Of a stretch of 64,000 bases of DNA, positions 49,722 through 59,665 are shown in pieces. The translations under genes were made by a program, and so were the position numbers. This DNA is from Nitrosomonas ureae (GTDB lineage: Bacteria; Pseudomonadota; Gammaproteobacteria; Burkholderiales; Nitrosomonadaceae), in the NCBI RefSeq assembly GCF_900206265.1, contig NZ_LT907782.1, forward strand, positions 2,294,001 through 2,358,000, read 5' to 3'. The notes beneath the pieces are model-generated. The model was not told the origin of the DNA. It did no database searches and saw nothing but the letters and a program-made list of their open reading frames with translations. Each line of letters opens with the position of its first letter. Position 1 is the first letter of the stretch.

Positions 49722-50201
49722 ATGCCATTGTGGAAAATTTATCATCCTGCGGAAGCGTTCAATGTTGCAGACAAAAGAAACCTGTCCGAGCGGATTACAA
49801 GTTTATACGCGGGTATTCCCATTCCAAAATTTTATGTGGTCATCCTTTTTGAAGCCCTCGCCGAGGGCTCCTGCTTTGTCAGTGGCGAGCCGCATAATCG
49901 ATTTATCAGGTTCAAAGTCGATCAGATTGCCAGAACGCTGCCCGGGCCGGTCATTAGGGAATGGTGGATCAGAACAATTGATGAAATCATCGCTCCTTTC
50001 GTAAAAGACAGGGGGTATGACTGGGAGATTTCAATTGACGAGACCCCTTTTGATCTCTGGTCTTTGCAGGGCGAAATTCCACCGCCATTTGAATCTGCCG
50101 CTGAGAAACGCTGGGTCAAGGAAAATAAAGCGAGTCCTTATACCTTGGCGGAAAAGCTTCCAGTCAATCTCATCCTTACTCCAGGAATCTCGGATCGGTA
50201 G
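49722..50201 (+). CDS. Tautomerase-superfamily protein (Tautomerase_3 type)
   Basis: 159 residues starting MPLWKIYHP, so removal of Met exposes the catalytic Pro1. The segment AFNVADKRNLSERITSLYAGIPIPKFYVVILFEAL is the repeated beta-alpha-beta unit of cis-CAAD/MSAD-like tautomerases and Tautomerase_3. Length agrees with those ~150-residue two-unit members. AGGAG is 6 bases before ATG 49722. A protein of this type often acts on halogenated or unsaturated acids; the substrate is unknown. A semialdehyde dehydrogenase gene follows by 82 bases. Confidence 0.8.
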   Translation: MPLWKIYHPAEAFNVADKRNLSERITSLYAGIPIPKFYVVILFEALAEGSCFVSGEPHNRFIRFKVDQIARTLPGPVIREWWIRTIDEIIAPFVKDRGYDWEISIDETPFDLWSLQGEIPPPFESAAEKRWVKENKASPYTLAEKLPVNLILTPGISDR

Positions 50202-50283
50202 ATTCCCGCTTGGCCAACCCGACCCGATCGGGTCGGCCAAGGCAAGAGAATTTTAGCCTTCAATATCACGCTAAAGGACAACA

Positions 50284-51690
50284 ATGACTTATCAAACAAT
50301 CAATCCGGCAACAGGACAACTGGTTAAAACTTACGCAGATATACCCGATCAGGATTTGGAGAGCGCACTTGCAAATGCTCATTGGGTTTTTGAGGCCGAC
50401 TGGCGCCATCGCCCGATAGCTGAGCGGAGCAAGATCGTATCTGCAGCAGCCACCATTCTTCGCCAAAAGAGTGAAGAATATGCTCATTATTTAACATTCG
50501 AGATGGGAAAACTCACCAACGAAGCGCGCGCGGAAGTCGCTCTTTCTGCCGATATACTGGACTACTACGCCCGAAAAGCCGCGCACTATCTGAAACCGAG
50601 AAAACTTCCCGAAACCTCTGCAGCGGAACTGCATATCGAACCTCTCGGTGTTTTACTCGGCATCGAACCATGGAATTTTCCCTACTACCAAATCGCAAGA
50701 GTGGCGGGGCCGCAATTAATGGTTGGCAACGTATTGCTGCTCAAACATGCGGAGAATGTGCCGCAATCGGCGCTGGCGTTTGCCCGCTTGTTTGAAGAAG
50801 CAGGGGCGCCTACAGGTGTGTATACGAATATATTTGCCAGTATTCCACAGATCAGCGCGATAATCGAGGATCCGCGAGTTCGTGGTGTCACCCTAACCGG
50901 TAGTGAACATGCAGGTGCGGTGGTTGCGGAGCATGCCGGCCGCAACCTCAAGAGAGCAGTGCTGGAAATGGGTGGCAGTGATCCGTTGATAGTGCTCGAA
51001 GATGCGCCGCTGGAATCAACGCTCAATAGCGCTTTATTCGGGAGGATGTTCAATACCGGTCAATGTTGCGTCGGATCGAAGCGCATCATTGTCGTCGGCA
51101 AAGAGCGCGGAAAGGAATTTCTCGATGGTTTTATCCAGCGGATGGCGGCATTGAAAGCCGGAGATCCGGAAGATCCAGAAACTACTCTGGGGCCATTATC
51201 TTCCGAGAAAACATTGAACACTTTGTTGCATCAGATTGCACGGGCCAAACAAGACGGCGGAAAAATTGTTCTTGGCGGCAGAAGAATCGATCGGCCTGGC
51301 TTCTACCTGGAGCCGACAATACTTACCGGCATCAATCAGGATAACGCAATCCATGCACAGGAATTGTTTGGCCCAGTGGCTTCATTCCAGGTTGTGGAAA
51401 ATGAGGAAGCAGCGATTCGGTTGGCAAACGCGACGCCATTTGGTCTCGGTGCTTCGATCTTTACTGCCGATGTCGGGCGCGGACGCAGAATCGCAATTAA
51501 AATCGACTGCGGCATGGTTTTTATCAATCAACCGGTATGGACAGCCGCCGAACTACCGTTTGGCGGCATCAAACGTTCGGGTTTCGGTCGTGAGCTATCC
51601 GAGCTGGGTTTTGGCGCATTTGTCAATGAAAAGCTGATTAACATTGCGCCACCCGATTCACCGCCATGGGGGCCTGTTGCTGTTGGCTAA
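50284..51690 (+). CDS. NAD(P)-dependent succinate-semialdehyde dehydrogenase-type aldehyde dehydrogenase
   Basis: 468 residues. Catalytic motifs are in place: PWNFPYYQIAR, the general-base glutamate in AVLEMGGSDPLIV, and the nucleophile in NTGQCCVGSKR. The N-terminal YQTINPATGQLVKTY and the SSADH-like EDPETTLGPLS segment favour succinate-semialdehyde dehydrogenase over other ALDHs, but substrate class is a family inference. Downstream of the tautomerase and possibly cotranscribed. Its 3' side abuts the tracrRNA terminator hairpin. Confidence 0.9.
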   Translation: MTYQTINPATGQLVKTYADIPDQDLESALANAHWVFEADWRHRPIAERSKIVSAAATILRQKSEEYAHYLTFEMGKLTNEARAEVALSADILDYYARKAAHYLKPRKLPETSAAELHIEPLGVLLGIEPWNFPYYQIARVAGPQLMVGNVLLLKHAENVPQSALAFARLFEEAGAPTGVYTNIFASIPQISAIIEDPRVRGVTLTGSEHAGAVVAEHAGRNLKRAVLEMGGSDPLIVLEDAPLESTLNSALFGRMFNTGQCCVGSKRIIVVGKERGKEFLDGFIQRMAALKAGDPEDPETTLGPLSSEKTLNTLLHQIARAKQDGGKIVLGGRRIDRPGFYLEPTILTGINQDNAIHAQELFGPVASFQVVENEEAAIRLANATPFGLGASIFTADVGRGRRIAIKIDCGMVFINQPVWTAAELPFGGIKRSGFGRELSELGFGAFVNEKLINIAPPDSPPWGPVAVG

Positions 51691-51783
51691 TTGGAGTTTC
51701 CGGTGCAAGTGTCATTTGCAAAATATACACCCGCATGCACTGAATTGAAGAAGTGTGCTCGCAGATTATGAATAGTGCTGATC

Positions 51784-51875
51784 AAAAAATAAAGGCCGCA
51801 TGTAGCGGCCTTCTCATTTGGTGCATCTTTCTGCTTGTTAGCGTTCAGAGCACAAATCCCAATAAACTATTTCGT
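51784..51875 (-). ncRNA. tracrRNA of the type II-C CRISPR-Cas system
   Basis: On the minus strand, an anti-repeat (TTATTGGGATTTGTGCTCTGA, near 51864-51844) is complementary to the CRISPR repeat read on the minus strand. It matches over ~20 bases and resumes (AGTTTA) after a 4-5 base gap. Downstream comes a short linker and a perfect terminator hairpin, AAGGCCGC/GCGGCCTT (51792-51812), followed by TATTTTTT. A promoter lies just upstream. Length about 90 nt. It is divergent from cas9. Confidence 0.82.
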
Positions 51876-51880
51876 TGCAT

Positions 51881-51909
51881 ATTCTACGCGAGGTAACTAG
51901 AATAATCAA
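51881..51909 (-). promoter_or_regulatory. tracrRNA promoter
   Basis: On the minus strand: -35 TTGATT (51909-51904), 17-base spacer, -10 TAGAAT (51886-51881). The predicted start near 51875 is just before the anti-repeat. Confidence 0.7.
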
Positions 51910-51951
51910 TAAAATCATATAGAAACCTTACCTTCAACCGGAGAATACACC

Positions 51952-54900
51952 ATGCTGCATAAGATGCGTTATCGCCTGGCACTTGATTTAGGATCAACTT
52001 CACTGGGTTGGGCAATGATTAGATTGAATGCCAACCAGCAACCTTGTGCAGTTATCAAAGCAGGGGTGCGTATTTTCTCAAATGGACGTAATCCCAAGGA
52101 CGGTTCTTCTTTGGCTGTAACACGACGTGAAGCCCGCAGCATGCGCCGCCGCCGTGACCGTTTGCTCAAACGCAAGGCACGCATGATGCGCACACTCATC
52201 GAATATGGTTTTTTCCCCGCGAATGAAACACAGCGCAAAGCGTTGGAAAACCTGAATCCCTATGCGCTACGTGCCAAAGGGTTGAATGAAGCGCTAACCC
52301 CTTCTGAATTTGCCCGCGCATTGTTTCATATTAATCAGCGGCGCGGCTTCAAAAGCAATCGCAAAACCGATAAAAGAGATAGTGATAGTGGCGCATTGAA
52401 AACTGCGATCAAACAATTGCATTCAGTCCTTGATCCGCAAGGAAATGACGGTAAACCTCGAACAGTCGGCGAATTACTTTACAAGCGTTTTACCGACCTC
52501 AGTAAACTGCCGAAGGACCGCACAGTACGTGCCCGCTACCGTCAAGACAAAATCGTCAAAGATGACGGTAAGACCAAGATCGATAAATATTATGATCTCT
52601 ACATCGATCGTGCCATGATCGAGCAGGAATTCGATGCGTTATGGAAGAAACAATCCGAACTGAATCCAATCTTGTTTACAGAAAATGCTCGAGCCGATCT
52701 GAAAGATATTTTGCTATACCAGCGTTCGCTCAAACCGGTCAAACCGGGACGCTGCACTTTTATGCCCGAAGAGGAACGCGCACCACTGGCTTTGCCTAGC
52801 ACGCAACGCTTCCGTATGTATCAGGAAGTGAATAATCTGCGCATCTTGCGTGAAGGGTTGAAAGAAGAATCATTGACATTGCAACAGCGCGACGATCTGA
52901 TCAATGCGCTGGAAAAAAACAATAGGCGTACTTTTACGCAAATCAAGAAATTGCTTGGCGTGGGTGGTTCAGTCCAGTTTAATTTTGAAGACCCCAAACG
53001 TGAAGAACTTAAAGGCAATACCACCAGCGCCATCCTCGGCAAATCGGAACATTTTGGCGAAGCCTGGTTTGCATTCAATGAAGCCAAGCAAGATGCCATC
53101 GTACTGCAATTGATCAAGGAAGAAAATGAAGCCAAACTTGTTCGATGGCTGCAAGACGAGACAGGCATCGATGAAAAAAGCGCTGAAGTTATTGCTAATG
53201 CCGGATTGCCGGAAGGTTACGGCAGTTTATGTATCGAAGCGTTGGCACGTATTTTGCCGGAGCTGCGTCGTGATGTGATGACATACGATAAAGCGGTGCA
53301 AGCTGCCGGCTTCGAGCATCATAGCAAGCTCAATCGGAATGAAGAAATTCCCGATATTACTTTCAAAATTGAAAGTATCGATCGGAACTCCGGTGAAATC
53401 AAGCAATTCCACCTTCATAAGGAACTGCCTTATTACGGCGAATATCTGCAACGTCATGTCGGCTTTGGCAGTGGCAAACCGGAAGATTCCATTGAAAAAC
53501 GTTACGGCAAAATCGCCAACCCTACGGTGCATATCGGACTCAATCAAATTCGCGTTGTAGTGAATGCGTTGATCAAACGCTACGGACACCCCAGTGAAAT
53601 AATTGTTGAAGTGGCACGCGACCTGAAGCAAAGCAAAGATCGACGGGATGAAGAAAACAAGCGGCAAGCCGAGAATCAGAAACGTAACGAACGGCTGCGT
53701 AAAGATATTGCGGACATTCTGGGAATCAGTGAAGAACGTGTACGTCGGGATGACATTGAGAAAATGATTCTGTGGGAGGAACTTAGTTTTGATCCCGCGG
53801 ATCGCCGCTGCCCTTATTCCGGTGTTCAAGTGAGTACCGTCATGTTGTTAAGTGATGAAGTGGAAGTCGAACACATCCTGCCTTTCTCGCAAACACTGGA
53901 TGACAGTCTCAATAATAAAACCGTGGCACTTCGCCAAGCCAATCGCATCAAGGGCAATCGTACACCTTGGGAAGCTTTCGGTACATCAAATATCTCGGGG
54001 TTTGACTATTCTGGGATTCTAACCAGAGCTGAATTAATGCCCAAAGCAAAGCGTTACCGCTTCGCCGAAGACGGGTATCAACGCTGGCTAAAAGACGATG
54101 CGGGCTTTCTGGCGCGCGCACTGAACGATACGCGCCACTTAAGCAAGATTGCACGTGAATATATGAGCTTGATTTGTCCCAATACGCGCGTCATTCCAGG
54201 GCAAATGACCGCTATGTTACGCCGCAATTTTGGCCTGAATGATGTACTCGGATTAAATGGCGAGAAAAACCGCAACGATCACCGTCATCATGCAGTGGAT
54301 GCCTGCGTAATCGCGGTAACGGATCAGGGCTTGTTACAGCGTTTTGCAGCAGCCAGCGCCAGTGCGCGTGAGCGGCAGCTTAATCGCCTTGTGGAAAATA
54401 TGCCATTACCGTGGGAGAGTTACAGGGAACATGTCCGGCGCGCCATTGATGGGATTTGGGTTAGCCATAGACCGGATCACAGCCATGAAGGGGCCATGCA
54501 TAACGATACAGCCTATGGTTTACGAGGTAATGGCAGAGTCAGTTTTCATAAAATGGTGGAAGGAAAACGTGAATACATAGAAGACAGCCTTAAAGTCATT
54601 GAAATTACTGATACTAAAGCCATAGATCGGCATGGTCTGTTGCCTACTGGCAAACCGAGACCCTATAAGGGCTACAAAGGTGATAGCAATTATTGTATTG
54701 AAATTGTCCGTAATGAAAAAGGCCGCTGGGAAGGCGAGATTATTTCCACGTTTGATGCTTATCAATTAGTACGTAAATATGGCATTGTACAACTGCGGCA
54801 TCCGGTTTTGAGTGTCAGTGGAAAGCCATTGGTAATGCGGTTAATTCGTAATGATTTTGTGCGATTGGAACATGAAGGAATAATAAGAACCCTACGTGTT

Positions 54901-55086
54901 TGTAAAATGAGAGAAGACGGTCAAGTTGCACTGGCAGATGTAACTGAAGCCAATGTTGATGCTAGAACCCGAACTAAAGAAATCTGCTATGTTTTTAAAA
55001 CAGGAGGTTCTCTTCAGAAAGCCAAAGCGCGTCGAATAACCATTTCACCCATCGGCGAACCCCGTGATCCGGGTTTCAAGGAATAA
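51952..55086 (+). CDS. cas9: Type II-C CRISPR nuclease Cas9
   Basis: 1044 residues, the compact II-C size. RuvC-I has Asp12 (LALDLGSTSLGW), then an Arg-rich bridge helix (RSMRRRRDRLLKRKARMMR), RuvC-II Glu553 (IIVEVARDL), the HNH motif with His641 (VEHILPFSQTLDDS), and RuvC-III His780/Asp783 (HRHHAVDACVIA). All catalytic residues are present, so it should cut both strands. Start ATG 51952 has GGAG eight bases upstream. It is followed directly by cas1 and cas2, with no csn2 or cas4, which defines II-C. The tracrRNA runs divergently just upstream. Confidence 0.97.
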   Translation: MLHKMRYRLALDLGSTSLGWAMIRLNANQQPCAVIKAGVRIFSNGRNPKDGSSLAVTRREARSMRRRRDRLLKRKARMMRTLIEYGFFPANETQRKALENLNPYALRAKGLNEALTPSEFARALFHINQRRGFKSNRKTDKRDSDSGALKTAIKQLHSVLDPQGNDGKPRTVGELLYKRFTDLSKLPKDRTVRARYRQDKIVKDDGKTKIDKYYDLYIDRAMIEQEFDALWKKQSELNPILFTENARADLKDILLYQRSLKPVKPGRCTFMPEEERAPLALPSTQRFRMYQEVNNLRILREGLKEESLTLQQRDDLINALEKNNRRTFTQIKKLLGVGGSVQFNFEDPKREELKGNTTSAILGKSEHFGEAWFAFNEAKQDAIVLQLIKEENEAKLVRWLQDETGIDEKSAEVIANAGLPEGYGSLCIEALARILPELRRDVMTYDKAVQAAGFEHHSKLNRNEEIPDITFKIESIDRNSGEIKQFHLHKELPYYGEYLQRHVGFGSGKPEDSIEKRYGKIANPTVHIGLNQIRVVVNALIKRYGHPSEIIVEVARDLKQSKDRRDEENKRQAENQKRNERLRKDIADILGISEERVRRDDIEKMILWEELSFDPADRRCPYSGVQVSTVMLLSDEVEVEHILPFSQTLDDSLNNKTVALRQANRIKGNRTPWEAFGTSNISGFDYSGILTRAELMPKAKRYRFAEDGYQRWLKDDAGFLARALNDTRHLSKIAREYMSLICPNTRVIPGQMTAMLRRNFGLNDVLGLNGEKNRNDHRHHAVDACVIAVTDQGLLQRFAAASASARERQLNRLVENMPLPWESYREHVRRAIDGIWVSHRPDHSHEGAMHNDTAYGLRGNGRVSFHKMVEGKREYIEDSLKVIEITDTKAIDRHGLLPTGKPRPYKGYKGDSNYCIEIVRNEKGRWEGEIISTFDAYQLVRKYGIVQLRHPVLSVSGKPLVMRLIRNDFVRLEHEGIIRTLRVCKMREDGQVALADVTEANVDARTRTKEICYVFKTGGSLQKAKARRITISPIGEPRDPGFKE

Positions 55087-55091
55087 CCCAA

Positions 55092-56021
55092 ATGATCGGT
55101 CGTATCGTTGAAGTAGCGGATGACCGGCGGCATCTGTTTCTCTCTCGCGGTTTCATGGTGGTCAAAGATACCGAGGGGGAACGCAAGGAATTAGGGCAAA
55201 TACCCCTGGATGACATTGCGGCGGTTATCGCCAATGCGCATGGCCTGAGTTATACCAACAACCTGCTGGTGGCGCTGGCCGAGCGTTGCGCGCCGTTTGT
55301 GCTGTGTGCCGCGAATCACAATGCAGTGGGTATGGTGCTGACGATCGACGGTAATTATCAGCAAGCAAAACGGTTTGATGTGCAGCTTGCTGCCAGTCAA
55401 CCGCTCAAAAAGCGGCTTTGGGCAGACATTGTCAAATCCAAACTTCAGCAGCAGTCTGACGCGCTTGAGGCTGCAGGAGCACCATTTATTCCGCTGCAAG
55501 CTTTGGTGCGCAAAGTACGTTCCGGCGATCCGGATAACTTCGAGGCGCAAGGGGCGCGGCGCTACTGGGGACTTTTATTTGGCGATGATTTCCGCCGCGA
55601 TCAGCAGAGTGATGGCCTTAACGCTATGCTCAACTATGGTTACACCGTTTTGCGCGCTACTACCGCACGTGCCGTGGTAGCAGCAGGATTGCATCCGACG
55701 ATCGGCTTGCATCACAGTAATGAAAGCAATGCGATGCGGCTAGTGGACGATTTAATGGAGCCTTTTCGTCCTGTTATTGATTTGAAAGTCTGGCAGTTGC
55801 ATCAACACGGCGAATCCCAGGTGACACCCGACAGTAAACGTGAGTTGGTCAGAACGGTATATGACGATATGCAAACTAGTGTGGGAGCCACGCCGTTGAT
55901 GGTCTGTACGCAAAAACTTGCCACCTCGCTGGCGCAAGTTTTTATGGGGGAAAGAAATAAAATGGACTTGCCTTTGCCAGGGCTGCCGCTCGACCTTGCT
56001 GCATCATTTATGGAGGACTAA
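55092..56021 (+). CDS. cas1: CRISPR integrase Cas1 (type II)
   Basis: 309 residues, type II Cas1. Metal ligands are visible at Glu151 (DNFEAQGARRYW) and in GLHHSNESNAMRLVDDLMEPFRP (His208 and the later acidic residue). With Cas2 it integrates new spacers. Starts five bases after the cas9 stop. Confidence 0.96.
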   Translation: MIGRIVEVADDRRHLFLSRGFMVVKDTEGERKELGQIPLDDIAAVIANAHGLSYTNNLLVALAERCAPFVLCAANHNAVGMVLTIDGNYQQAKRFDVQLAASQPLKKRLWADIVKSKLQQQSDALEAAGAPFIPLQALVRKVRSGDPDNFEAQGARRYWGLLFGDDFRRDQQSDGLNAMLNYGYTVLRATTARAVVAAGLHPTIGLHHSNESNAMRLVDDLMEPFRPVIDLKVWQLHQHGESQVTPDSKRELVRTVYDDMQTSVGATPLMVCTQKLATSLAQVFMGERNKMDLPLPGLPLDLAASFMED

Positions 56022-56027
56022 CGTGCT

Positions 56028-56354
56028 ATGCTTTCAGGATATCGCTTAATGTGGGTTATTGTCATGTTTGATTTACCTGTCGTTGAAAAAGCTGAGCGCA
56101 AAGCCGCGACAGATTTTCGCAATACTCTGTTGGATATGGGTTTTGAAATGTCGCAATTTTCTGTCTACATGCGTTTCTGCAGCAGTCAGAGTCAGATCGA
56201 TACGTATTGCACGCAAGTAGAAAAAAGCTTGCCTACAGGCGGCAAAGTCAATATCCTGCAATTTACCGACAAGCAATACGAACGCATCATTACTTTTCGC
56301 GGAAAAAGCAAACAAGCAAGCAAAAAATCACCCGAACAATATGAACTTTTCTGA
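56028..56354 (+). CDS. cas2: CRISPR adaptation protein Cas2
   Basis: 108 residues, ferredoxin-like fold: MWVIVMFDLPV, FQFSVYMRF-like second strand (SQFSVYMRF) and VNILQFTDKQYERI. Start at ATG 56028, six bases after cas1; an internal ATG (MWVIV, 56049) is an alternative. Last gene before the array. Confidence 0.95.
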   Translation: MLSGYRLMWVIVMFDLPVVEKAERKAATDFRNTLLDMGFEMSQFSVYMRFCSSQSQIDTYCTQVEKSLPTGGKVNILQFTDKQYERIITFRGKSKQASKKSPEQYELF

Positions 56355-56380
56355 CAAATATTATGGTTTCTTCACTGGCA

Positions 56381-56420
56381 TGTACATTAACTCCTCTAAT
56401 AATCATGGGGTTAATGTACA
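56381..56420. other. Inverted repeat between cas2 and the first CRISPR repeat
   Basis: TGTACATTAACTCC (56381-56394) pairs with GGGGTTAATGTACA (56407-56420), 14 bp with one G-U pair and a 12-base loop. It ends three bases before the array. It has no T-run. Confidence 0.7.
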
Positions 56421-56423
56421 GCT

Positions 56424-56789
56424 AGTTTAGCATATTGGGATTTGTGCTCTGACCAGAACATCGGCCGTTGACGGAACAGCATAAAGAACAGTTTAGCATA
56501 TTGGGATTTGTGCTCTGACCAGAACTCTACCCTTCCCTTCCATCGTTATGGCTCAAGTTTAGCATATTGGGATTTGTGCTCTGACCAGAACTCATCAGGC
56601 GGCATACGATCCGCGCAGTTAAGTTTAGCATATTGGGATTTGTGCTCTGACCGGAACTTAACAGCTTGACGGCTATCGGTGCTGCTCAGTTTAGCATATT
56701 GGGATTTGTGCTCTGACCGGAACTGTAAACACAACCTCAAGAAGCCGCCCGGAAGTTTAGCATATTGGGATTTGTGCTCTGACCGGAAC
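56424..56789 (-). CRISPR. Type II-C CRISPR array, 6 repeats and 5 spacers
   Basis: Six 36-bp repeats begin at 56424, 56490, 56556, 56622, 56688 and 56754; all five spacers are exactly 30 bp. On the plus strand each repeat opens AGTTTAGCATATTGGGAT. The first three end ACCAGAAC and the last three ACCGGAAC. Read on the minus strand the repeat starts GTTC and ends TATGCTAAACT, where TGCTAAACT fits an extended -10 promoter as in Neisseria and Campylobacter II-C repeats. That orientation also agrees with the tracrRNA. No terminal repeat is degenerate. Spacer sources are unknown. Confidence 0.97.
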
Positions 56790-56889
56790 TTGGAAATAAA
56801 TGGGTTCTGTGAATGACAGTACGAGTATTCAAAATATGGCTGAATCGAGCAAGCAAAGCAGGGACAACATTAGTTATACGAATTTATCT

Positions 56890-56939
56890 GATAATGATAA
56901 TAAGAATCGTTTGCAATTGTAAAAATTATTGTGTAATAT
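56890..56939 (+). promoter_or_regulatory. Fur box with promoter upstream of a candidate sRNA
   Basis: GATAATGATAATAAGAATC (56890-56908) matches the 19-bp Fur consensus at 16 positions. It lies immediately before a -35 TTGCAA (56911-56916), a 17-base spacer and a -10 TAATAT (56934-56939). A bound Fur dimer would block this promoter when iron is plentiful. Confidence 0.7.
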
Positions 56940-56945
56940 GCGTAC

Positions 56946-57116
56946 TGTCCATCAATTAGTGATTGGCATACCGCAGCAACCAGCGCATTCTCTCGCGTAG
57001 TCGGATGGTAGCAAATTACATTTCTTGTTCTTCCTTGCTGCGTGAACATAAGCCCTCACGCATCACTTGCCCGGCACATTTTGCTCTCTTCCTTTAAATG
57101 TGCCGGGTTCCTTTTT
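56946..57116 (+). ncRNA. Candidate Fur-regulated small RNA
   Basis: Between the predicted start (about 56946) and a strong terminator lie ~170 bases without an ORF that has a ribosome site. The segment folds into CCATC/GATGG pairing around a stem region, a GCGTGA/TCACGC hairpin (57040-57061) and the terminator. Two pyrimidine-rich stretches, near 57021-57037 and in the terminator loop, could pair with Shine-Dalgarno sequences. This is the layout of RyhB/NrrF-type iron-sparing sRNAs, though I cannot show homology. An mRNA leader for the short ORF at 57149 is the alternative. Confidence 0.6.
57070..57116 (+). terminator. Rho-independent terminator of the candidate sRNA
   Basis: CCCGGCACATTT (57070-57081) pairs perfectly with AAATGTGCCGGG (57096-57107), with a CU-rich 14-base loop, followed by TTCCTTTTT. 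Confidence 0.88.
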
Positions 57117-57148
57117 AGTATCCGTGTGGTGTTGTCAATAATTTGATC

Positions 57149-57436
57149 ATGACCTTTCCCGGTTCTCCGGTTGATTTACAGCTGATAGCCCAGGTGGCTT
57201 CAGGTAGTGTCGGGGAGTTGCTTAAAGAGTGGTTGTCGAGGGGTGTAGAGCACAGCTACGCAATCCTACTTGCGCCGATTGGCGTCTTGGATCATCCGCT
57301 ATCAATGCAAGGATTGGGCGGAGAATCGATAATTATGGTACGGGATCTATTCGAAGCCAATCCGGATTCAGCTGTGTTGCTGATTGGGGGTAAAAGATTC
57401 TCAGACATCGGTAAAGAGTATCTTGGTGCATACTAA
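57149..57436 (+). CDS. Hypothetical short protein
   Basis: A 95-residue frame (MTFPGSPVDLQLIAQVASGS...). No signal peptide, membrane segment or family I recognise, and no clear ribosome site before ATG 57149 (a TTG at 57143 is in frame). It follows the sRNA terminator by 33 bases. It may not be a real gene. Confidence 0.3.
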   Translation: MTFPGSPVDLQLIAQVASGSVGELLKEWLSRGVEHSYAILLAPIGVLDHPLSMQGLGGESIIMVRDLFEANPDSAVLLIGGKRFSDIGKEYLGAY

Positions 57437-57525
57437 AAAGTATGCGGTAGTAACCTTGGTCAGGTGGTATCAAGGCAGTTATTAAGAGTCGCTGGAGACC
57501 GATAATCGACGGTAGTTGGTTGATT

Positions 57526-58209
57526 CTACTGTTTAGATTGATCAGGAGCTGCTTCCGGCGCTGGTTGTGTTTCCGTCACAAAAATTTCCACACGGCGATT
57601 TTCCGCTCTATTTTCGGGCGTATTATTTTCAACCATGGGTTCACGGGAGCCGCGGCCATCAATTTGAATGCGTTTAATCGATACGCCCCGGCTCACCAGA
57701 TAATCTCGCGTGCTGGCAGCCCGATTAACCGATAACGGATTATTAATGGCATCGCTGCCGGTGCTGTCAGTGTGCCCGATGATTTTGACGGCTGTGCCTT
57801 CATTACTAATCAGGGTGGTTGCGAAATTATCAAGAATGGGTCTGAAGCCTGATTTGATGTCCGCCCGGCCGGTGTCAAAGGAGATGTCGCTGGGGATATT
57901 TAGCTTGAGGCGATTGTCTTCGGTTTGCGTGACTTGCACGCCTGTACCTGCGGTGGCTGTCTCCATTTCCCTTTTTTGTTCTTCCATCCGCTGTGACCAC
58001 ATATAACCGGCGCCAGCGCCAAGCAGAGCGCCTGAGCCTGCACCAATGGCAGCGCCTTTTTTGCCTCCAATCAGTGCACCGATCGCAGCTCCTGTACCCG
58101 CGCCAATCGCGGTTCCCTGCGCTGTGCCGCGTTGCGTGTCCGTCATGGTTGCGCAGCCGGTCAACGTTAGGATTAGAGCTTGAACAATTAAAATTGAAAG
58201 AGTTTTCAT
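57526..58209 (-). CDS. OmpA-family lipoprotein (YiaD-like)
   Basis: 227 residues. Lipobox LTGC near residue 18, a glycine-zipper region (~30-70; GAGTGAAIGALIGGKKGAAIG), a short coiled segment, and an OmpA domain with IIGHTDSTGSDAINNPLSVNRA and RIQIDGRGSREPMVENNTPENRAENRRVEI. The OmpA motif holds peptidoglycan; the lipid anchors the outer membrane. Stands alone before the Calvin-cycle operon. Confidence 0.93.
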   Translation of the reverse strand: MKTLSILIVQALILTLTGCATMTDTQRGTAQGTAIGAGTGAAIGALIGGKKGAAIGAGSGALLGAGAGYMWSQRMEEQKREMETATAGTGVQVTQTEDNRLKLNIPSDISFDTGRADIKSGFRPILDNFATTLISNEGTAVKIIGHTDSTGSDAINNPLSVNRAASTRDYLVSRGVSIKRIQIDGRGSREPMVENNTPENRAENRRVEIFVTETQPAPEAAPDQSKQ

Positions 58210-58432
58210 GGGTATCTCCTTGCTACGTTATTTCGTTGCGCAATAGCTGAAACAGCTTTTAGATTACTATTACGATAGTATTTAGAGAACATAACCACTC
58301 ACTTGATATTTCATAGGCAATGATGAGTATCATATCAGTAAATATAATAAGATGTTACATTGAAATGCCAATAAACTTTCAAGTTGTATTATTGCTGATG
58401 CATATCCGACTTAATGGTATCTGCATTTTATG

Positions 58433-59665
58433 CTAAATATACTGTGCCGGAGAAATTCTGATTTCTTCTATGCGGGGATTCGGTTCCGCTGCAGTTGCAG
58501 CGAATGTAATATTGATTTTGTCAGGCTCCGATATACGCGCAAGCTGATCGATAAAGGCAAGATATTCCGCATGGGTTTGGAAATTTTTGCTGGCATCGGT
58601 AGTTACAAATTGAATACGCCAGCATAGATGATATTGATCCGCTGCAGTTAATGCCCAACCAGAGAAAACCTGGCGTACTCCTGGAATCGCGCATAATGTT
58701 TCGCGGCTTCGTTCGATAAAGGTTTCTATGTGTTGCAAATAGCGTTCTTCAACATTGTAAGCAATGATTTGCTCTACAGGTTGCCAAGCACGACACTGAA
58801 TCAATACTTCTGCGGCGCGGCCGGCCGAACCCCAACGATGCATGCATAGACTGACTTGCTCCTGGAGGTTATTTTTAACATCGCGCATCGTTTCAATATA
58901 GCCTTTTTTAGCGCGTGTTTGAACGTTGGAGCGAATGGTGGCAGCAGCAATATCTGAAAGTTCTGTGTAGCAGTTGATTTTAGCAACGCCATTTAAAATC
59001 AGCTTATGGTATTGATCCTCAATCAGTCCGCTACCTCCATGCAGTACTAATGGAATCCCAAGTTCGTCATTGATTCGTTTCAGGCGCTTGAAGTCCAGTT
59101 TGGCTCTACTGCTCTGACGACCATGGACAGTGCCAATGGAAACCGCTAAAAAATCAACTTTGGTGCGGTTAACATAAACTTTGGCTTCTTCTGCAGAGGT
59201 ATAAATGATACCGCCTAAGTGATTGAGAGCATTTTCCCCTTCCGTGCCGCCGACAAAACCAAGCATTCCTTCAATGGCGGCACCACTGGCGTGAGCGATC
59301 TCTGTTGCGCGGCTGGTGTGAGCGATATTGACGGTAAATGCTTCTGAAGATACATCCAGCATGACACTATTGCAGCCCAGATTAATTGCCTGGACGATGG
59401 ATTCGTGCTGTTTTGCGTGATCAAAGTGGATTGCTACCGGTACTTTAGCCAATTGTGCTACACGTTCAACTGCCGGTAAGATTAATCTGAAATCATGCTG
59501 ACCGAAGAGCGGCTGGGAAAGGTTGATAATGACGGGGGAGCGGCAGCATTCGGCTGCCGTGATAATAGCCTCCAGGAAATCCAGACTCACCAATCCGAAA
59601 CCACCGATTGCGTAGTTATTTTGATAAGCATGCTGCAACATGTCGCGCATATCTACGAGTGGCAT
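58433..59665 (-). CDS. Class II fructose-bisphosphate aldolase fused to a Dabb-like domain
   Basis: 410 residues, against ~340-350 for usual class II aldolases. Residues 1-~290 are the aldolase with zinc-ligand motifs AIHFDHAKQHESI, EGMLGFVGGTEGE, GTVHGRQ and LVLHGGSGL. The extra C-terminal ~110 residues (VEQIIAYNVEERYLQHIETF...HAEYLAFIDQLA) resemble the Dabb dimeric alpha-beta-barrel domain. It is the last gene of the cbbLS operon, where the enzyme acts on fructose-1,6- or sedoheptulose-1,7-bisphosphate in carbon fixation. Substrate choice cannot be read here. Confidence 0.88.
   Translation of the reverse strand: MPLVDMRDMLQHAYQNNYAIGGFGLVSLDFLEAIITAAECCRSPVIINLSQPLFGQHDFRLILPAVERVAQLAKVPVAIHFDHAKQHESIVQAINLGCNSVMLDVSSEAFTVNIAHTSRATEIAHASGAAIEGMLGFVGGTEGENALNHLGGIIYTSAEEAKVYVNRTKVDFLAVSIGTVHGRQSSRAKLDFKRLKRINDELGIPLVLHGGSGLIEDQYHKLILNGVAKINCYTELSDIAAATIRSNVQTRAKKGYIETMRDVKNNLQEQVSLCMHRWGSAGRAAEVLIQCRAWQPVEQIIAYNVEERYLQHIETFIERSRETLCAIPGVRQVFSGWALTAADQYHLCWRIQFVTTDASKNFQTHAEYLAFIDQLARISEPDKINITFAATAAEPNPRIEEIRISPAQYI

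Follow-up and report, generated by a model that had tools for sequence, protein, structure and literature searches.

A candidate family of Fur-controlled small RNAs in Nitrosomonas built around a covarying hairpin

INTRODUCTION

Ammonia oxidisers are strongly dependent on haem proteins and on iron-sulphur proteins. A computational study of sRNAs in N. europaea reportedly exists. The 64,000-nucleotide stretch of Nitrosomonas ureae DNA analysed here (the window) raises the question whether a Fur box, a promoter, and a terminator with no coding region between them constitute a gene of their own, which a first-pass annotation had read as a probable iron-responsive sRNA, and what such an RNA would do. 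Of the three fur homologues of N. europaea, one serves as the iron-sensing Fur; the terms sRNA, small RNA, RyhB, and psRNA do not occur in the paper describing them (PMC3050691). In the literature searched, no Fur-controlled sRNA of this kind was found described for Nitrosomonas or other ammonia oxidisers.

RESULTS

Architecture of the window copy

The features proposed in the first-pass annotation were recovered with small changes (Table 1). The Fur box, claimed as a 16/19 match, is the sole match with at most three mismatches to the 19-bp Fur consensus in the 64-kb window, where 0.02 are expected (100 shuffles), and it is overlapped by a second match of 14/19 starting at 56896. The -35/-10 pair with its 17-base spacer is present behind the box, though both hexamers are weak (4/6 each), and the terminator, for which a stem of 12 bp had been given, has one of 13 bp. 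As had been stated, no ribosome site lies within the RNA: the combination of a Shine-Dalgarno sequence and a start codon was absent from the + strand of all six full-length copies examined. Two CU-rich stretches that could pair with Shine-Dalgarno sites had been pointed out; in this RNA the linker and the terminator loop are CU-rich, and each is complementary to a Shine-Dalgarno sequence together with the AUG. A generic promoter scan and a terminator scan of the window listed neither site, the promoter because each hexamer matches at only four of six positions and the terminator because its 14-nt loop exceeds the 8-nt loop limit of the scan; the support for both comes from relatives. The window RNA is predicted to fold more stably than its shuffled versions (z = -3.3).

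Table 1. Coordinates of the sRNA gene, its parts, and associated features (window positions unless stated otherwise)
Feature	Position	Strand	Remarks
Fur box GATAATGATAATAAGAATC	56890..56908	+	16/19 match
-35 TTGCAA	56911..56916	+	Directly 3' of Fur box; sequence
-10 TAATAT	56934..56939	+	17-nt spacer from -35
sRNA	56946..57116	+	~171 nt; predicted start near 56946
Domain A, region of model R1	56961..57019	+	R1 72.5 bits; covariation in 69 distinct sequences
Conserved ACCGC ahead of domain A hairpin	56970-56974	+	
Domain A 5' hairpin (hairpin A)	56976-57012	+	Conserved and structured
Conserved bulge AGTCGGA in domain A hairpin	56999-57005	+	
CU-rich linker CATTTCTTGTTCTTCCTT	57019..57036	+	Complementary to Shine-Dalgarno sequence and AUG
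Hairpin B, TGCGTGA-ACATAAGCCC-TCACGCA	57039..57062	+	Kept in 11 aligned copies, few changes
Terminator stem-loop	57069..57108	+	13 bp; stem with both-sided changes
Terminator loop TGCTCTCTTCCTTT	57082-57095	+	14 nt, CU-rich
T-rich tail TCCTTTTT	57109..57116	+	Sequence
Downstream 97-aa ORF	57143..57436	+	Outside the element; decaying
Palindrome TGTnCG-N4-CGnACA at L060, L063, L066, L085, L091, L097, L098, L103, L104, L106	54-71 nt 5' of hairpin A		

A family largely confined to the genus

By blastn, the window segment was found in 17 of 85 genomes of the genus, and the full-length copies all display the same order, i.e., Fur box, promoter, hairpin A, CU-rich linker, hairpin B, and terminator with a CU-rich loop. 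A covariance search of related Nitrosomonas genomes, which the first-pass annotation had suggested for 56946-57116, uncovered a family: model R1, which comprises hairpin A alone without the Fur box and was built from 17 rows (these match by construction), located 105 places in 44 of the 85 genomes at E values up to 0.1. Model R2, covering hairpin B and the terminator, matched in 20 of the 85 genomes at E values up to 0.01, with matches better than 1e-20 in six genomes only. Divergent copies escape R1, as the Fur-type copies L020 and L024 of G081 were seen by blastn only. Seventy of the 105 places were read (71 matches in 68 loci, minus the 37-nt partial row L077:4264-4300, which was removed before counting); these 70 include L086 (29 bits), which resembles part of a coding frame, and because many of the copies stem from related species, the counts given below are not independent.

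Beyond the genus, hairpin A is rare. Matches were obtained in 8 of 399 genomes of the order, five of them within the genus, and among the three outside it, only G453 is convincing, its match lying at the same place as a Gallionella record; L141 and L142, two partial matches from the order-wide search that are alike and resemble coding sequence, were not counted. When 84,980 species genomes were scanned with a pattern, 47 of the 50 stretches listed were titled Nitrosomonas. Rfam produced no match above family cut-offs in the window and, at E values up to 5, nothing but chance matches in positions 56860-57140. Judged by these searches, the RNA family is new to Rfam and undescribed.

No recurrent neighbour accompanies the RNA: among the neighbouring ORFs scanned (101 of 129 for Fur-type copies, 80 of 115 for the others), no Pfam family occurred with more than three Fur-type members or more than four others, and phage genes were present next to both kinds. 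The RNA is free-standing, with its own terminator, no conserved coding frame, and no gene in cis.

Several individual copies depart from the common layout. In the same genome as the window, further copies of hairpin B with the terminator were found at 2836941-2837036 (L002; 13/19 Fur box) and at 249467-249560 (L137; Fur box of 12/19, i.e., at background level), and a copy of hairpin A at 805398-805459 (L085) combines a CU-rich terminator loop with a second palindrome in place of the Fur box. Two tandem copies of hairpin A lie ~80 bases apart at L070:2451-2654, the Fur box of the second being located between them. In locus L067 (785-872 and 1501-1557), sRNA-Xcc1 (Rfam RF02221) and a copy of hairpin A lie ~630 bases apart, and a CRISPR-repeat-like sequence is located immediately 5' of the hairpin A copy.

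Fur boxes and a second palindrome occupy the same promoter slot

A Fur box matching at least 13/19 positions was found within 150 nt upstream of 43 of the 70 copies, compared to 4.6% of 1400 background windows drawn from these loci. In 38 copies, stemming from 24 genomes and here called Fur-type, the box lies at -60 to -95. Among these 38, the best-scoring -35 hexamer starts 14 to 21 nt after the start of the Fur box in 31 and the promoter spacer is 17 or 18 in 32 (both counted without a shuffled control). The element bears the Fur box at its own promoter, as expected of a Fur-controlled trans-acting sRNA. The genome of the window contains two Fur-family genes and one hfq gene. The reading as a probable iron-responsive sRNA thus gains support from conservation, from the existence of a family, and from the association with Fur boxes; Fur probably turns the sRNA on at iron shortage.

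In the remaining 32 of the 70 copies, the slot contains no Fur box. Ten of these carry instead the palindrome TGTnCG-N4-CGnACA (at least nine of the ten fixed bases) at -54 to -71, a motif present in 0.8% of the 1400 background windows and in none of the 38 Fur-type copies. Paralogues that share one structure but differ in their operators would provide a clear example of rewired sRNA control.

CU-rich loops and candidate targets

A hairpin with a T-rich tail was detected by a lenient script behind 68 of the 70 copies (without a shuffled control). Terminator stems of at least 9 bp were present in 34 of the 38 Fur-type copies, and 30 of these 34 enclose a loop that spans at least 12 nt and has a pyrimidine content of 70% or more, while the corresponding numbers for the 32 other copies are 23 stems and 12 long pyrimidine-rich loops; for several early matches in the -65 to -71 group, the script scored a plausible stem badly. 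Read on the reverse strand, the linker and the terminator loop both match AAGGAAGA-N-ATG. The minus-strand ORFs that might follow such sites were rejected, as the frames extend over 1 to 8 codons here and their stop numbers differ between copies; the motifs were therefore interpreted as complementarity to ribosome sites.

The pattern AAGGAAGA-N2..13-ATG occurs at 31 places in the genome, the same pattern read backwards at 11. Of the 31 places, 30 were examined for gene-like starts, defined as frames of at least 100 amino acids with fewer than 20 open codons before them. Four were obtained, belonging to an HxlR regulator, a cytochrome c (identified by Pfam only, just over the cut-off), SufB, and a permease, so that two of the four encode iron proteins. 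The predicted duplexes of the candidates are not exceptional when compared with those of 28 gene starts in the window, the best of which (start 17745, -21.6 kcal/mol) exceeds all candidates in strength. Among 12 genomes that have R1 matches, 9 contain the cytochrome site GGAAGA, compared to 5 among 12 that have none. Cytochrome c and sufB are weak candidates for iron-protein targets.

Domain A in phages and prophages

A Fur-type copy immediately follows a CII-like gene in five Nitrosomonas-type viral contigs (L202, L207, L210, L212, and L213); in L204 the two are separated by one gene, and in L246 the CII-like gene is present and the Fur box absent. In phage-like sequence, hairpin A was also observed directly before a terminase small-subunit gene (L205:2452-2506 and L166:1974-2031), with a CI-like repressor on one side and a replication gene on the other (L201), and by a replication gene, the one neighbour tested, in L168. 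Searched with R1, 18 phage-type sources gave 20 matches, 19 of them at an E value of 1e-6 or better; these sources were picked from a huge collection, and L166 and L214, the weakest, are insecure on their own. Whole-region blastn against phage and plasmid collections revealed nothing meaningful. The viral contig L204 additionally contains matches to the C4 antisense RNA and to isrK.

A possible, still tentative explanation is that domain A is a phage-born plug-in RNA module that serves as the 5' half of Nitrosomonas sRNAs, with control swapped in one promoter slot between Fur and at least one other regulator, that of the palindrome TGTnCG-N4-CGnACA, and that prophages install such sRNAs. Temperate phages would then carry domain A in regulatory and packaging regions.

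The same observations bear on the mode of action. The RNA could be a genuine Fur-controlled sRNA that functions without Shine-Dalgarno pairing, with domain A serving to titrate or recruit some protein, or with the RNA acting on prophages and not on iron metabolism. Domain A is the most widely shared part of the family and in phage-like contigs is found with no CU-rich loop, Fur-type copies are located in prophage regulatory regions, and none of the candidate targets stands out. We nevertheless consider this unlikely, as long CU-rich terminator loops recur among Fur-type terminators and two segments of the sRNA are complementary to the Shine-Dalgarno sequence and the AUG together.

Covariation and G-U pairs point to hairpin A as an RNA structure

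In an alignment of 69 distinct sequences, 92.4% of the cells of hairpin A were paired and 10 of the 13 pairs showed changes on both sides, counts that favour the model since the alignment was fitted to it. The covariation score of 0.367 exceeds that of shuffled alignments (0.159) and was reached in none of 500 shuffles, and versions of the structure slid along the alignment scored 0.036 to 0.090. G-U or U-G cells were much more frequent than A-C or C-A cells (107 versus 18), also when a constant G-U pair found in 67 of the 69 sequences was disregarded (40 versus 18). Because G-U lies well above A-C, the molecule under selection is considered to be the RNA of the + strand. A 3-bp contact of CCG (56971-56973) with the bulge CGG is possible within domain A; two of its three pairs are invariant, and the third is changed on both sides in one sequence. 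When the window RNA is folded alone, the consensus hairpin A is not its best structure, other pairings being preferred; the outer stem of this copy contains an A-A mismatch.

These data also address whether domain A is a DNA-level element, such as a mobile element's REP-like or recombination hairpin, and came to lie between promoter and terminator by chance. Its copies are indeed many and dispersed, several of them in prophages, and covariation occurs in DNA hairpins too, but the constant G-U pair and the excess of G-U over A-C favour RNA, and in Fur-type copies domain A has a fixed orientation between Fur box and terminator, which makes a DNA element quite improbable.

The RNA, and not the adjacent ORF or the CRISPR array, is retained in two close relatives

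According to the first-pass annotation, joint loss of box, promoter, and terminator in close relatives would have spoken against the gene; in G082 and G083, where this was checked, the opposite was found. The Fur box and promoter are 95% (G082) and 93% (G083) identical to the window, and the sRNA 98% and 95%, while the 90 bases upstream of the element share 80% and 48% identity. The other reading that had been offered, a regulated leader or attenuator of the short downstream ORF, is contradicted by the same comparison. Although this ORF is on the strand of the sRNA, only 26 bases past the terminator tail, its identity drops to 75% in G082, where it is broken by frame-shifting gaps, and to 43% in G083, where 116 of 294 positions are deleted. 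It has no match in Pfam, and the genes adjoining other copies vary. A leader role is therefore very improbable, and the sequence retained in these relatives is, on this comparison, the RNA rather than the ORF.

Upstream of the element, the window contains a type II CRISPR-Cas locus (51845-56789) with genes for a 1044-residue Cas9, Cas1, and Cas2, behind which lies an array of six 36-nt repeats (56424-56789). Within positions 50000-59000, the strongest repeat-pairing sites found were the array itself and a perfect 20-nt tracrRNA anti-repeat at 51845-51864 on the minus strand, ahead of cas9. A function of the element as tracrRNA or as leader or promoter of the array is practically ruled out even though the Fur box lies only ~100 bases past the array end, because the anti-repeat is located ahead of cas9 and not in the sRNA, and because G082 and G083 keep the sRNA with unrelated sequence at the position of the array.

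DISCUSSION

Comparison with relatives identifies the window site as a real, conserved sRNA gene under a Fur box, the founding copy of its family. We consider it likely that this stand-alone gene represents a new family of Fur-controlled, trans-acting sRNAs that act via anti-Shine-Dalgarno loops, in the manner of LhrC or IsrR. RNAs of this kind are already known; the structured module is new, as are the operator swaps and the link to prophages.

The first-pass annotation had cautioned that homology to known sRNAs was not shown, and by Rfam there is indeed no homologue of a described Fur-controlled sRNA. The element resembles RyhB, PrrF, and NrrF in having a Fur box over its own promoter, in its size, and in the presence of hfq in the genome; their covariance models gave no match in positions 56860-57140, neither at the gathering threshold nor at E values up to 5. 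BrrF of Burkholderia, a low-iron sRNA of a betaproteobacterium, is located downstream of hemP without a Fur box of its own and is assumed to be co-expressed with hemP (PMC7377471). In contrast, the window sRNA possesses its own Fur box, and its neighbours are cas2 with the CRISPR array and an OmpA-family gene, not hemP.

Parallels in the way of working are found in two described systems. LhrC1-5 of Listeria monocytogenes (Rfam RF00616) is, like the family here, a multicopy sRNA, and it uses redundant CU-rich motifs placed in single-stranded stretches and in loops, as they are in the window sRNA (PMC4132741). This is a likeness of working, not of descent, as the comparison with RF00616 gave 19.5 bits at a cut-off of 110 and an E value of 1.1, i.e., a chance match; moreover, LhrC is controlled by LisRK, not Fur, and lacks domain A. 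IsrR of Staphylococcus has Fur boxes at its own promoter and an iron-sparing role, is comparable in length (174 nt), and pairs with ribosome sites through several C-rich regions that are single-stranded (PMC9410917). It belongs to another phylum with no sequence link known here and is a single gene without paralogues under other operators, the structure of its first stems being conserved with little covariation (PMC9410917).

By analogy with the CU-rich motifs of LhrC and the C-rich regions of IsrR under Fur, we favour translational repression at iron shortage. When iron is sufficient, Fur-Fe(II) bound to the box, which overlaps or abuts the -35 hexamer, would block transcription. When iron is low, the sRNA would be made from about position 56946 and end at its own terminator. 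The 5' hairpin of domain A may stabilise the RNA or bind a protein. The linker and the large terminator loop, both CU-rich, would pair with mRNAs at their Shine-Dalgarno and start regions and shut down translation, probably as a means of sparing iron. Comparison establishes the gene and its conservation, the family to which it belongs, the association with Fur boxes, and the structure of the RNA, while iron induction, pairing, targets, and the effect of the sRNA are inferred.

Through this family, iron control is connected with prophages and with a covarying RNA module that is new, and the domain A family spans many ammonia-oxidising bacteria and some phages. If domain A is indeed a module of phage origin, prophages would give ammonia oxidisers sRNAs that are iron-responsive as well as sRNAs that are wired otherwise.
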